From assembly GCF_000265405.1 (NCBI RefSeq), contig NC_018010.1, positions 1,968,501 through 2,032,500 of the forward strand: 64,000 bases of DNA. Direction: 5' to 3'. The position numbers and the translations under genes are program-made. Position 1 is the stretch's first letter, and every line of letters begins with the position of its first letter. Of this stretch, positions 5,842 through 51,405 are shown piece after piece. The DNA comes from Belliella baltica DSM 15883 (GTDB lineage Bacteria; Bacteroidota; Bacteroidia; Cytophagales; Cyclobacteriaceae). The notes beneath the pieces were generated by a model. That model was given only the letters and a program-made list of their open reading frames with translations. It had not been told where the DNA came from and ran no database searches.

Positions 5842-7443
5842 TTAAGGTTTGAAAATGATCAATTTTTGCCCAAGCTGGATATTATCACTTGAGAGATTGT
5901 TCCATCTTTTAATTTCCTCTATCTTGACGCCATACTTTTGACTTATTCTGAAAAGGTTTTCGCCTTGAGATACAGTGTGGCTGATCCTTGTGGGACTTGC
6001 TTGTTGAGTTGGCTTAGTTTGTTCAACAGGCCTAGTTATTGGCTGACTTGTTTGAGTAGGAGCGGACTGCGCCTGCGGAATTGGAGCAGGTTGCCTTTGC
6101 TGATTTACAGGAAGTACTTTGATTTCTTCCCCTCTTTTCCTATGTTCTTGTAGATTGAGAACCATTCCTACTTGCAGGCTTTTGTCATTTCTGATTCTAT
6201 TTTTAGCTTTCAATGAAGAAAGTTTGATTCCATATTTTTGAGAAATTGACCAAAGTGTTTCTCCTTGTTGGACAATGTGGATTTCTGCATCTGCACTCCC
6301 TTTTTTTGGTGCGGTATAATAATATTGACCTGCTTCAATAGGATCTTTTTTATCCAAATCATTTATTCTCCTGAATTTACCCGAACGCATGCCGATTTGA
6401 TCAGTGAAGTTGTCTTGTGAAGTGCTTGTAGCAGCTTGAACTGCTTCTATATCATTGACCAAAATCTGATCTGTCTGTGTGGACTTAGCAGTATTGCCTG
6501 TGACCTTTGGATATGAATTGGCTTGTGCTTGACTGTATCTCGTGGTTTGATAAGTCGTAGCAGAGTTATCTGTTTTAGTACTCGTCTTTGCAACAGCAGG
6601 TCTGGCTTGTGGAATTCCACTTTTCACATAAACAATAGAATAGGTTTTATCACCTGGGATTTGACCATTGCTTGTCCATTTATTGTATGCTTTTAACTCT
6701 GCTTCAGGGACACCAATTCTGGCTGCAACTGCTTTCAGTGTAGTCGGGCCTTGGACTGAAATTTCTTCCAGATAACCCGTATTCGATACCAGTCTTCCTA
6801 TTTGCCCTTCGAAAGCAATTTTGTGTGCGAGAAATTTCTTGAAATACCAATGTGTATTTCTATCAAGCTCAACAACCTTTTTACCGTTATACTGGGTGCC
6901 AAAATATGATTTAGCACCACCCAAACCCATCTGGTATGCGACTAATCCGCACATCCAATTGTCAAACTGACTGTTGTTTTTCTTCAAATATCTTGCTGCA
7001 CCTTGAGTGGAGGATACTATATTTTTCCTTTCGTCAATCTGATTGTCAACTCGCAAAAAAACCTCTTCGGCAGTTCCTTTTTTGAACTGCCAAAAGCCAA
7101 CTGCATTAGAAGTAGAGACTGCATCTGAAATAAGACTGCTTTCTTGAATGACTAAATATTTTAAATCAAGTGGGACTCCAATTGCTTGAAGCTCTCTCTC
7201 AATGATAGGCATGTATAGGTTGACCCTGTCAAGTTTTATCTTGAAATACGTTTGATTTCTGTGTAAAGCATCTACATCCAGTTGGATTTCTCTTCTTGCT
7301 TGTTCGTTAAGTTTAAGTGTCAAGTCTGCAAAAATAATTTCTCTTGGAACTTGTGGGATTTGCCCAAAACCTTGGTTAAAAACCAAAGTGAAAAGTGCAA
7401 TGAATAGACTTTTTGAAATGATACTTAAAAAACGTGATTTCAT
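5842..7443 (-). CDS. Membrane-bound lytic murein transglycosylase D-like protein with LysM repeats
   Basis: A 533-residue exported protein. After a signal peptide (to about residue 27) comes an SLT-type lytic transglycosylase domain with the catalytic glutamate E101 in VIQESSLISD, the AVGFWQFKKGTA motif and AYQMGLGG. A degenerate LysM-like segment lies near residues 240-275. Two clear LysM domains follow: IHIVQQGETLWSISQKYG near residue 393 and SHTVSQGENLFRISQKYG at the C-terminus, separated by a Gln/Pro/Thr-rich linker. It would cleave peptidoglycan glycan strands in the periplasm. Its start overlaps the end of the O-methyltransferase gene upstream (4 bases), indicating an operon of M16 peptidase, methyltransferase, transglycosylase and DUF3078 protein. 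Confidence 0.93.
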   Translation of the reverse strand: MKSRFLSIISKSLFIALFTLVFNQGFGQIPQVPREIIFADLTLKLNEQARREIQLDVDALHRNQTYFKIKLDRVNLYMPIIERELQAIGVPLDLKYLVIQESSLISDAVSTSNAVGFWQFKKGTAEEVFLRVDNQIDERKNIVSSTQGAARYLKKNNSQFDNWMCGLVAYQMGLGGAKSYFGTQYNGKKVVELDRNTHWYFKKFLAHKIAFEGQIGRLVSNTGYLEEISVQGPTTLKAVAARIGVPEAELKAYNKWTSNGQIPGDKTYSIVYVKSGIPQARPAVAKTSTKTDNSATTYQTTRYSQAQANSYPKVTGNTAKSTQTDQILVNDIEAVQAATSTSQDNFTDQIGMRSGKFRRINDLDKKDPIEAGQYYYTAPKKGSADAEIHIVQQGETLWSISQKYGIKLSSLKAKNRIRNDKSLQVGMVLNLQEHRKRGEEIKVLPVNQQRQPAPIPQAQSAPTQTSQPITRPVEQTKPTQQASPTRISHTVSQGENLFRISQKYGVKIEEIKRWNNLSSDNIQLGQKLIIFKP

Positions 7444-48210: not shown

Positions 48211-48297
48211 AGAGAGGTGTCCGAGTGGTTGAAGGAGCACGCCTGGAAAGCGTGTATACCCGTGAGGGTATCGAGGGTTCGAATCCCTTCCTCTCTG
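48211..48297 (+). tRNA. tRNA-Ser (GGA)
   Basis: Type II tRNA of 87 nt. The acceptor stem AGAGAGG pairs with CCTCTCT, discriminator base G. The anticodon loop CTGGAAA lies between CACGC and GCGTG, giving anticodon GGA. The long variable arm TACCCGTGAGGGTA and the T arm GGGTTCGAATCCC are intact. CCA is not encoded. A terminator follows. Confidence 0.96.
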
Positions 48298-48303
48298 CAA
48301 AAT

Positions 48304-48375: not shown

Positions 48376-48507
48376 ATTTAACGTGCCGCGGCTTGGAGAC
48401 GGTGGGCATTCGGAACCGTTCTCTTCCAGCCTACTCCTAACTTCTTTAAGGTACTAAACTTTCTATTTACACGGAACCGCCCGCTGTCTTCCAAGGTGAT
48501 GTTAGAG
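48376..48507 (+). other. attC-like structured site (first)
   Basis: A long imperfect inverted repeat with the layout of an integron attC site. ATTTAAC (48376-48382, matches RYYYAAC) is at one end and GTTAGAG (48501-48507, GTTRRR plus a mismatched last base) at the other. Between them are arms CTTGGAGACGGTGGGC (48392-48407) and GCCCGCTGTCTTCCAAG (48479-48495), which pair except for G-U or mismatched positions and a one-base bulge. Unpaired spacers of about 9 and 5 nt lie between boxes and arms. The assignment is inferred from structure; no integrase gene is present in the window. Confidence 0.5.
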
Positions 48508-48528
48508 TGCGTTATTCCTTTCGAATGC

Positions 48529-48828
48529 TCACAGGAATGTTAACCCAATTCTTTTATTCAATCCTTGTTCGAAAATCCGGATCAAAGTTGACAACTGAAT
48601 ATTTCCTTTACCATTTTCAATCTTTGAGATATAACTTTTCTTTGTTCCTGCTTTTTCTGCCAATTGTTCTTGAGTCAGATTTGCTTCCTTCCTCGCTTCT
48701 TTTAGCATTTCGCTGATGATGAACATCTGAGCATTTTCTTCATACTTATTTCTGCTTTCACTTCCAATTTTTCCGTGCTCAAGTTCAATCAGTTCATCGA
48801 ATGTTTTGACTTTGCTATAATCCTTCAT
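48529..48828 (-). CDS. higA: HigA-type antitoxin with XRE helix-turn-helix
   Basis: A 99-residue protein. The C-terminal part is an XRE HTH: MLKEARKEANLTQEQLAEKAGTKKSYISKIENGKGNIQLSTLIRIFEQG. The N-terminal part (VKTFDELIELEHGKIGSESRNKYEENAQ) is the segment that contacts the toxin. It starts 4 bases after the toxin gene, toxin-first order as in higBA. It would repress the operator found in the toxin promoter. Confidence 0.93.
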   Translation of the reverse strand: MKDYSKVKTFDELIELEHGKIGSESRNKYEENAQMFIISEMLKEARKEANLTQEQLAEKAGTKKSYISKIENGKGNIQLSTLIRIFEQGLNKRIGLTFL

Positions 48829-48832
48829 GATC

Positions 48833-49168
48833 TTATTTCTTTGTTTGAAAATATTCCTTCATTAACCTTTCTGCTTTCTCCAATTCATTCTTCGGAGTCT
48901 TTTGGGTCTTTTTTTGAAAACCGTTGAACAGAACCACCAGCCTTCCTTCATCAAAGCAGCAAAAGATCCTGAAAATATTTGATTGAAACTCAACTCTTAT
49001 TTCATATAACCCCTCAGTTCCTTCAAGATGCTTGAGAAACTTTTCCGGTACCCTTTCCACTTGCTTGATCAGTTCAAATACATATTGGATCTTACTTTTA
49101 ACCTTATCATCCTGGCTTTGGTAAAATTCAATAAAGTGGTTTTCATAAAAAATGATCTTCCTTACCAT
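48833..49168 (-). CDS. higB: HigB-type toxin of the RelE/Gp49 superfamily
   Basis: A 111-residue protein from the ATG at 49168 (MVRKIIFYENHFIEFYQSQ); a GTG at 49174 would lie in the promoter -7 element. Family features are KIQYVFELIKQVERVPEKFLKHLEGTEGLYEIRVEFQSNIFRIFCCFDEGRLVVLFNGFQKKTQKTP, typical of phage-derived Gp49-like or RelE toxins that cut mRNA. The promoter predicts transcription starting at or very near the ATG (leaderless). The pair lies between two attC-like sites, in reverse orientation to them. Confidence 0.93.
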   Translation of the reverse strand: MVRKIIFYENHFIEFYQSQDDKVKSKIQYVFELIKQVERVPEKFLKHLEGTEGLYEIRVEFQSNIFRIFCCFDEGRLVVLFNGFQKKTQKTPKNELEKAERLMKEYFQTKK

Positions 49169-49173
49169 ATTCA

Positions 49174-49204
49174 CAAAGTTATCTCAAAAGATAACATTTT
49201 CCAA
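49174..49204 (-). promoter_or_regulatory. Promoter of the second higBA operon
   Basis: On the minus strand TTG (49204-49202), 20 nt, TAACTTTG (49181-49174): an exact consensus match. Its -7 element ends 5 bases before the ATG at 49168. Confidence 0.8.
49178..49195. promoter_or_regulatory. Candidate HigA operator (palindrome)
   Basis: GTTATCT (49178-49184), CAAA, AGATAAC (49189-49195): a perfect 7-bp inverted repeat with a 4-base spacer, lying within the promoter and overlapping its -7 element. Position and symmetry fit repression by a dimeric HTH antitoxin. Binding is inferred. Confidence 0.6.
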
Positions 49205-49229
49205 AAATGCAGCGGTTTCTTTTAATGCA

Positions 49230-49320
49230 CTCTAACGTAAAGTGTTTTAGACGCAATCTACCTAAAAAAATAACTATAATAAATAGTTCTATCAAGATTG
49301 CGATTAAAACATAGTTGGAC
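49230..49320 (+). other. attC-like structured site (second)
   Basis: CTCTAAC (49230-49236) and GTTGGAC (49314-49320, a full GTTRRRY match) flank arms GTTTTAGACGCAATC (49244-49258) and GATTGCGATTAAAAC (49296-49310), which pair over 15 positions with one A-A mismatch and one G-U. An inner hairpin AACTAT/ATAGTT lies in the loop. GCACTCTAAC at 49227-49236 is the exact complement of GTTAGAGTGC at 48501-48510, the relation expected between the two ends of a single integron gene cassette. Structural inference only. Confidence 0.5.
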
Positions 49321-49526
49321 TAAGCCGTGCTACCTCTATGGGTATTTATATGCTTTTGTTTTGGTTTATTTTGATCAGTTATGCTTTTTCTCTTGAGGTG
49401 AGACTATTTTTTTGGTCTATTCTTTTGCTTTTTCTCTTTGAATCGGGCATATCTTTCCCAATAACATACTTTTCTGTTTTTGTTTTTACTTCAGTTTTTC
49501 AAAGAACTTCAATCTACCAATTTTAT

Positions 49527-50603
49527 TTAAGGAGCTTCTCCTTTCTCTTCTCGGATACCAAATACCATCTTCCCCGATTTGCAACATGGACATTTGAACA
49601 TTTCATCTCCAAAGATCTCTCTCAATACTTCATATGTACTCAAGCCCTGATAAAATGAAATCAACCTGGGTTTTTTTAAAAGCCGAAAGCATTCATCCAT
49701 TTTTGTAGCGCTATTAGTAGAAGCCATTATGCCATAATATCTGATTTTGTAAAAACCTGAGGGAAGGATATGTTGCATAAACCTTCTGACAAACTCAGCA
49801 CAGTCAAGTGTCAGTGTCTTGCTTTTGTTGTCACGGTAATCCTTCCACTGAAACCTGACCGTATGCCCATCAGTAGCCAAAATCCTGCTATTGCTTATGG
49901 CTACCCTGTGAGTATATCTTCCAAGATAGGAAACCACTTGGTTGGCTCCCTTGAACGTTTTCTTGACATAGACATTCCATGGCTTTTCATAAGCTTTGCT
50001 TTTTATGGATTTTATATCACCATACAATACATCTTGACTTTTCGGTATCTTCAACTCCTTTGACTGTATCGCTCCAATAAGTCTTTCCATAAACACTCCC
50101 CTGAAAATTGCAGACAGCGCTTTGATCGGTACAAAGAACTTTTTGTTAGCATGTATCCACTGCATCCCGTCACTGTCAATATCGGATGGTTTTAGACTAA
50201 TCACCTCCCCAAGCCTGAGGCCTGATCCATACGCAAGAGCTATGAGACAGTAATGCTTCCTATTCCGAATACTATTAAGAATTTGAGATATTTCCTCTTT
50301 GGAAAAAACAGTAGGAAGAATTTTAGGACGTCTTGGACGCTTGATCTTCACAGGATCCCACTCTCTACCCAAAACATCTTTAAAAAGTATCTTGAAACCA
50401 CTGATAGTCTGATTTACCGAGGATGCCGAAAGTTTATCTTGTTCGATTCTGGTGAATAAATAATGCTTTAACTCGGCTATACTGATCAGGTCAGGGCTTT
50501 TTCCAAAGTACTTGGAAACTATTGAAACAAGACCAATGTAAGTCTTGATACTTCTTGGAGAGTAATGCCGATAAGACATCTCTTCAAACATCCTTTGACG
50601 CAA
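49527..50603 (-). pseudogene. Chimeric remnant: tyrosine recombinase N-terminus fused in frame to IS91-type transposase C-terminus
   Basis: A 358-codon frame. Residues 1-146 are a tyrosine recombinase: SAM-like core-binding domain (MFEEMSYRHYSPRSIKTYIGLVSIVSKYF) and the beginning of the catalytic domain through ALAYGSGLRLGEVISLKPSDID with the first catalytic Arg (R130). The HxxR and Tyr parts are absent. From about residue 148 it is the C-terminal half of an IS91/IS801 transposase (HANKKFFVPIKALSAIFRGVFM, VVSYLGRYTHRVAISNSRI with the Y226/Y230 pair, HILPSGFYKIRYYGIMAS, a final CPCC). The HUH metal site is missing. Elements with adjacent integrase and IS91-like genes occur in Bacteroidota; an in-frame deletion joining the two is the simplest explanation. 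Probably non-functional. Confidence 0.8.
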
Positions 50604-51405
50604 ACTTTTTTTCCATGATGAAATAAATTAAAGATTTAACATGGTATAAATTTACGATAAACATCAAAAAATCAACCACTTGAAGGTAAGCTAAAAACTA
50701 CCGACGAAGGAGGTTTGGTTCAACAGGGTATTTTTGATCAAATTTGAGAGTAATTGAACAGAAAAGTAATTTTCTTTTCCCTTAAAGCTAAAAACTTCTG
50801 GGGAAAGATGAGTTTAGATCTTGATTCAATTTTTGAAATTGTTAGAGAATTGATTAAAAAACTCGTGAAGTGTGGAACTTAGATTCAAAATTCATCTTTA
50901 ACCAAAGTGAAGGCTAATAATGATTTAGCCCGCTTCGAGGCTACCACCGCTAAATCCGTGGTCATCCATTTAACCTTTCACCTTTAACCTTTTTCCTTTA
51001 TCATTGTGTTTCCTCAGTAACCCCCTCGACATTCGAAATTCAACGTTCAACATTCATCATTTTTTTTACCCTTCATTCATTCAATCTCCTCCTTTTAATC
51101 CATTTCCTCGGCAATCCTCGGCAATCCTCGGTGCCTTCTCTGTGCCGCTCTGTGTAATAAAAGAACTTTCTTTACCTCAATTCCAAATATCAACTATTAT
51201 ACTTCGAAGTCTTCGTGTCAATCCATATCGCTTCAGCGCCAGAAATATAAACCCCCTCTAAATCAAATTTCAATTCATCAGTTCCTAACCCTCGTTCAAT
51301 TAGTAGTCATCCTTTAACCTTCCCCCTATTTACACAGCCATATCTCCTTAGTGCTTAGCTAGTCTCTAAGTAGATATTAATCATACGATTACCCTAAATA
51401 AACAA

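Follow-up and report, generated by a model that had tools for sequence, protein, structure and literature searches.

In the chromosome of Belliella baltica DSM 15883, a higBA-type toxin-antitoxin gene pair lies between two structured sites, which raises the question of whether the pair is a gene cassette of an integron and, if so, which recombinase would have moved it. The first-pass annotation of the window, that is, the whole 64-kb stretch of DNA that was analysed (G000:C1:1968501-2032500), had read higBA as the content of an integron-type gene cassette whose platform is absent from the window. Our analysis supported this reading. No complete platform-type recombinase was present within the 64-kb window, and comparison with related genomes indicated that higBA is very probably one cassette of an integron-like system of Bacteroidia, parked in the chromosome away from its platform.

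Read on the minus strand, the locus consists of an upstream unit, a hairpin site, higB, higA and a predicted 124-nt attC, followed by a tRNA-Ser gene on the plus strand. Indeed, the pair that had been noted between the boxes is a toxin-antitoxin pair on the minus strand, with both proteins over the Pfam cut-off: the gene of a RelE/ParE-type, higB-like toxin comes first (48833..49174, 113 aa; Gp49, PF05973, 83.6 bits, cut-off 23.9, E 1e-23) and that of a higA-like HTH antitoxin second (48529..48828, 99 aa; HTH_3, PF01381, 60.1 bits, cut-off 23, E 2.1e-16). None of the NCBIfam models matched the two proteins above its own cut-off, and PADLOC returned only partial or generic matches for them. The left site lies 3' of higA on the minus strand (48503-48380), with AAC at 48503-48501 and GTT at 48382-48380, and the tRNA-Ser(gga) gene (48211..48298, plus strand, ARAGORN), whose flank is conserved, adjoins the distal end of the array. 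The right-hand site is an 83-nt hairpin, GTCCAAC...GTTAGAG (49234..49316, minus strand), which belongs to a repeat family, and is part of a cassette-like upstream unit between two GTT junctions (49237..50724, minus strand, reading from 50724 to 49237).

The earlier pairing of GTTAGAGTGC (48501-48510) with GCACTCTAAC (49227-49236) as complementary ends was borne out. In the minus-strand reading, GTTAGAGTGC is the start box of the cassette (49227..49236) and complementary to the R'' box GCACTCTAAC at the end of the cassette body (48501..48510), and in a repeat finder the complementarity extended over 14 nt, with 93% agreement between the arms 48501-48514 and 49223-49236. BLAST against the loci of relatives further showed that the conserved unit comprises the higBA body together with the whole or the inner part of the left site; its right-hand limit falls at 49230-49238 in six loci from six other genomes, across which the higBA body is 89-99% identical. 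Downstream of higBA, the same family-1 site follows in 7/7 copies, whereas the sequence upstream differs: the short right-hand site in the window, another attC in L015, a family-1 attC in L019, L013 and L021, and unrelated sequence with a degenerate cassette start in L018 and L026. Because the left site is constant and the upstream sequence variable, the left site travels with higBA; and since the right-hand box limits the conserved unit, within which the left site is contained, the cassette in its integrated form (48383..49236) is read on the minus strand from 49236 to 48383. By this comparison, the higBA cassette carries its attC 3' of its genes on the strand on which they are read, as in ordinary integrons. 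Two points of the first-pass annotation thereby need correction: it had placed the genes in reverse orientation within other cassette limits, and it had taken both sites as the flanks of one cassette, whereas the left site is the attC of the cassette itself and the right site belongs to the neighbouring unit.

Five of the seven higBA copies start with GTT (GTTAGAGTGC twice, GTTAGAGGAC once and GTTGTGGTGC twice) and the other two have degenerate starts. At the window locus, crossover is predicted within or next to the GTT/AAC triplets (49234-49236 and 48380-48382). By eye, the copy in L018 starts directly behind sequence unlike attC (~5880-5950) and without an Rfam match, and this copy is possibly an insertion at a non-attC genomic site. 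Upstream of the G002 copy, Rfam returned nothing at E ≤ 0.1. A stabilising effect on the array is ascribed to toxin-antitoxin cassettes in superintegrons, and higBA may, by analogy, have such a role here.

In relatives, the other content expected between the same junctions was found, in Belliella aquatica, but a clean empty site was not found. The B. aquatica locus has the same flanks as the window locus, with the tRNA-Ser side kept up to ...GTTAAAT and the other side ending in ...AAAATACCCT directly before GTT. Between these flanks lie ~2.2 kb of other genes, ending in an attC match (L215 5586-5705, 75.7 bits), and the junction on the exbB side is part of a repeated palindrome, TACCCTGTTATGGGTA. 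In G007, the tRNA-side flank is kept to about AAC and the sequence is different thereafter.

The left site folds and is a member of a ~125-bp repeat family, whose matches are limited by AAC...GTT. Cassettes of this kind were chained by the score of start box against end box together with the site arms in 70 recombinase loci, namely those with at least 500 nt downstream among the 80 named loci plus the window genome. At least one cassette was chained in 35/70 loci, and 58 of the 73 chained attC sites were 122-127 nt long. From 53 unique attC sites (118-130 nt, box run of at least 5), 39 were aligned; the 14 left out came from L100, L105, L106, L114 and L116 (mostly divergent types) and, one each, from L097 and L147. 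The alignment contains an 18-pair stem with changes on both sides in 17/18 pairs, a pattern of compensatory change by which the attC stem is kept.

A covariance model, R1, was built from the 39 attC sites, none of which came from the window locus and two from the own genome's platform. In the 64 kb, R1 gave a single match at E ≤ 1, at 48510-48373 on the minus strand (74.4 bits, E 1.8e-15). The covariance-model check proposed with the first-pass annotation thus came out in favour of an attC at the left site; at the right-hand site, which had also been read as attC, R1 found no match at E ≤ 1. Since 4/39 training sites share the window site's own sequence subfamily, the window match is not by structure alone. 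R1 also matched the sites around the higBA copies, partially in L018. Rfam gave no attC-like match at either window site (E ≤ 5). On one classical betaproteobacterial plasmid integron region, R1 found no match at E ≤ 1 and the arm detector returned too many chance matches.

Among the 53 attC sites, the right arm is longer than the left in 52, and of the 50 cassettes having an ORF of at least 50 aa, 44 have their longest ORF on the strand of the attC. The classical R' box has the consensus GTTRRRY; here, position 4 is a purine in 52/53 sites and position 5 in 21/53, a departure from that consensus. In only 37/53 sites does the bottom strand fold more stably than the top strand. One unpaired stem position is A in 39/39 sites (T on the bottom strand), opposite C (35) or G (4), which makes it a mismatch, or a G-T wobble on the bottom strand, with no bulge; in the consensus of the 39 sites, no bulged extrahelical bases were found, only mismatches. 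For classical attC, passages of PMC2727003 describe extrahelical bases on the R''-L'' arm as setting strand choice.

For the right-hand site, the evidence is divided. Its family has 18 matches in 8/59 genomes, one of which covers only the higBA cassette end. The upstream unit that it closes starts with GTTGAACCAAACC, which is complementary to the end box GGCTTAGTCCAAC at 10/13 positions, and has a 99.8% copy elsewhere in the genome, between an R1 attC match (L055 9661-9859, 43.9 bits) and a unit starting with GTT. We assign the right-hand site to the neighbouring unit, but do not regard it as a secure attC. For this site only, we put the chance at about one half that it is no attC and represents instead the terminus of an element, IS91-like or other, that inserts at the GTT junctions of cassettes. 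Such an end would fit the R'' box TCCAAC, which is the same in 11/11 aligned copies and does not vary with the cassette, the hairpin with only 2/15 pairs covarying, the lack of an R1 match and a matching start box seen in no more than three cases (the window, L055 and, less closely, L060). Against it, a GTT follows, with boxes that differ, in 12 of the 17 listed copies, the nearly identical unit copy sits between an R1 attC match and a GTT start, and an IS91 ORF occurs only in L055 and L060 among the 13 family loci searched (with only ~160 nt upstream covered in L056, L057 and L058). On the last count, the IS91-end reading is rejected as an account of every copy of the right-hand family.

The upstream unit encodes a 358-aa chimeric ORF (49527..50603, minus strand), which fuses an N-terminal tyrosine recombinase part with the C-terminal portion of an IS91-family Y2 transposase (Pfam SAM_4, partial Phage_integrase and Y2_Tnp; NCBIfam IS91, 200 bits). 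A second copy of this ORF lies at L055 9972-11048 (G000:C1, ~3.19 Mb), with a protein 99.7% identical, and in L060, from a relative, a Y2 transposase split into two frames and without the recombinase part occupies the same spot. In addition, an intergenic repeat of ~65-120 nt was observed at 50722-50843 in the window, where the upstream unit interrupts it at the central GTT. Copies occur in G001:C24, G004:C69, G003:C30 and G006:C84 and at G000:C1:2263379 and 2276459, and five fetched copies end in a palindrome like TACCCTGTTATGGGTA. Behind the intergenic repeat in L216, an attI-like sequence was seen.

A candidate platform for the higBA cassette is encoded in the own genome. A gene for a 455-aa tyrosine recombinase at G000:C1:1070650-1072014, ~0.95 Mb from the window locus, is followed 98 nt after its stop codon by a GTT, from which two cassettes chain. 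This is likely a platform whose array is co-directional with the recombinase gene. Comparison of close pairs of loci showed how abruptly similarity ends at the GTT. Between B. aquatica and the own platform, the gene is identical over its last 300 nt and the stretch from stop codon to GTT agrees at 103/104 positions, whereas the next 100 nt agree at 64/113; between Cognataquiflexum rubidum and C. nitidum, the values are 106/106 for attI and 67/116 for the next 100 nt. Two MAGs have identical attI (212/212) followed by 100 nt of unrelated sequence (54/120), and four more pairs, with less similar attI, likewise diverge at GTT. These data indicate that the same putative attI can carry different first cassettes.

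Further, a GTT 74-243 nt past the stop codon with a box matching the end of an attC-bearing cassette was found in 29/69 named recombinase loci with enough downstream sequence. As controls, upstream windows gave 1/49 and Xer-like recombinases of relatives 1/20 (p 1.3e-7 and 0.0011, respectively), the latter being a set of 300-336 aa recombinases not profiled one by one. No such attI match was found in the other 40/69 loci, many of which have contigs that end soon. R1 at E ≤ 0.01 matched attC in 44/80 recombinase loci, training sites included, and gave no match in 36/80, again with many contigs ending soon. With training sites included, 108/117 R1 matches share the strand of the recombinase gene, and 40/80 loci have matches downstream of it; in the 20 Xer-like loci, R1 gave 0 matches. 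The placement of cassette ends at GTT and of attI behind the recombinase gene rests on these comparisons of loci. In three loci, L151 and L153 (Winogradskyella) and L154 (Proteiniphilum), attC was observed on the opposite strand and 5' of a related recombinase, which is the classical divergent layout.

The 455-aa recombinase contains SAM-like and phage integrase domains according to Pfam, and scored 216.9 bits with the integron integrase model (cut-off 265) and 216.1 bits with XerA; PADLOC gave no match for it. Among solved structures, its closest relative is V. cholerae IntI4 (2a3v), of which residues 181-244 face only 26 residues here. The spacing between GKGxKDR and HTLRH is 52-64 residues in 61/61 platform-type recombinases and 99-101 in 14/14 IntI proteins: the IntI-specific insertion (the patch) is absent from these recombinases. 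In a quick, unrooted tree with long branches, the four IntI rows form one group (SH-aLRT 99).

The recombinase also carries an N-terminal region of ~165 residues, modelled as two beta-beta-alpha-beta-beta-alpha repeats (mean pLDDT 83.9). A HARP match to this region was obtained in 21/40 proteins at E ≤ 0.05 (best 5.6e-6), and the own-genome protein P0001 scored 17.9 bits with HARP (PF07443), below the curated cut-off of 25. A fold search with just the N-terminal model found nothing at E ≤ 0.001; XPB was matched with a probability of up to 0.99 (E 0.05-0.3) and the HARP domain of SMARCAL1 (4o66) with 34% identity (E 0.23), and secretin and FACT chains ranked above both. Whole-protein fold searches were filled by recombinase-domain matches. 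The modelled N-terminal region is thus weakly HARP-like, which offers a lead.

Taken together, the sequence comparisons are most likely explained by a cassette system whose driving recombinase family lacks the IntI-specific insertion. The recombinase would recognise the folded bottom strand of attC, which is the plus strand of the window, and cut it at the GTT end. Cassettes would be excised as circles, which would be inserted between the G and the TT of the attI behind the recombinase gene or, as at the window locus, at other GTT sites, and recombination would proceed without the IntI-specific insertion. More speculatively, the HARP/XPB-like N-terminal region might take over the recognition of the folded single strand. 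Because such a driver lacks the IntI insertion, the usual search for IntI would probably miss the integron. Beyond the window locus, we lean slightly towards a widespread integron lineage proper to Bacteroidia, in which folded attC is handled without the insertion, via one or two modules like HARP or the XPB damage-recognition domain (DRD), and which was missed by insertion-based surveys.

The similar sites expected elsewhere were abundant. R1 at E ≤ 0.001 matched 51/59 relatives and 23 sites in the own genome, and at E ≤ 1e-6 it matched 150/198 Bacteroidia genomes, from 101/121 genera. P0001-like recombinases were found at E ≤ 1e-60 in 98/395 genomes of the phylum; the attC and recombinase searches used different genome samples, so that co-occurrence is not derivable from these counts. 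Many attC-bearing genomes may have lost the recombinase or use a more distant one.

Alternatively, the window locus might be an ordinary CALIN, its cassettes gathered by a classical patch-bearing IntI that has since been lost, with the patch-less recombinases as bystanders. Patch-bearing IntI does occur in the phylum, scoring over the cut-off in 105/395 genomes. However, only one of these 105 (G095) is labelled as the same class, a count that stands beside a class total within the 395 that is not given, and among the 59 relatives only G032 has an IntI over the curated cut-off (G032:C13:43538-44470, 303 bits), yet attC is present in 51/59. Moreover, attI lies directly behind the patch-less gene and not behind Xer-like genes. 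We consider such an origin unlikely. Patch-bearing IntI is common in genomes assigned to other classes of the phylum. Still less probable is movement of the cassettes by XerC/XerD instead of a dedicated recombinase. The near-equal scores of the recombinase on the XerA and integron models would allow it, but the 20 Xer-like loci are without attC, an attI match was found in one of them, and it is the dedicated recombinase behind which the arrays lie, on the same strand.

As a control against palindromic repeats, neighbouring sites were paired after a blind hairpin detector was applied to 80 loci. A site's start box matched the end box of the site that follows it at 6-7 of 7 positions in 74/495 pairs, compared with 4/495 for reversed pairing, 4/495 for random pairs and 8/778 for the two boxes of one site (Fisher 3.5e-19). 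Most of the 495 pairs were unmatched because the detector threshold also admits chance hairpins, as indicated by a shuffled-sequence comparison. The pattern is the trace expected from circular cassettes and not from plain palindromes. Dispersed REP/MITE-like palindromic repeats flanking genes by chance would explain why the sites are palindromic, multi-copy and sequence-conserved within a subfamily, but this reading is rejected by the box test and can hardly hold, given that boxes match across cassette ends and not within a site, identical attI precedes unrelated first units and the attC strand has the longest ORF in 44/50 cassettes.

The proposed Bacteroidia system, driven by a recombinase without the insertion, shares with sedentary chromosomal integrons such as the Vibrio cholerae superintegron the 3' attC, the complementary cassette ends, the GTT junctions, an attI beside the integrase and a folded attC with compensatory changes. 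In contrast to these, its recombinase is without the IntI insertion of ~40 residues but has an additional region at the N-terminus, its attI is 3' of the gene, its array is mostly co-directional and its R' box is not GTTRRRY. Integrons with the integrase co-directional to the array are found in Treponema and others; the co-directional layout is shared with these, but their integrases have the insertion. As in a CALIN, the window locus has one or more cassettes and no integrase nearby; unlike a CALIN, it has only one secure attC in the window and lies in a genome with a likely platform. The N-terminal region resembles the HARP domain of SMARCAL1 and the XPB damage-recognition domain by weak profile and fold similarity, with the own-genome protein below the curated cut-off for HARP.

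In the literature, the "integron-like" tyrosine recombinase subgroup outlined in parts of PMC8138268 is close to IntI in sequence, as are the recombinases found here, which may belong to it. In those parts, the IntI insertion is called essential for integron function, whereas here insertion-less recombinases are tied to attI and attC arrays. A survey described in passages of PMC2426708 selected integrases by the IntI insertion. The text of PMC9024848 (IntegronFinder 2.0), in the sections concerned, states that the extra domain distinguishes IntI from other integrases and that Bacteroidetes integrons are few, with complete ones rare: an earlier survey had only In0 elements, and one was then found in Salinibacter ruber. 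Bacteroidota are listed among integron-bearing phyla in passages of PMC8618304 and PMC9668308 that give no detail. The open-licence PMC literature yielded no account of integron platforms without the patch from Bacteroidota, which is a weak absence.

Judged by comparison, the Bacteroidia system appears to work like an integron while departing from the IntI insertion and GTTRRRY criteria. If the recombinase works without the insertion, the rule by which integrons are defined and found would be too narrow. If this holds true, a large reservoir of cassette genes would have gone unread, and the origin of the use of folded single-stranded DNA by tyrosine recombinases would become directly testable.
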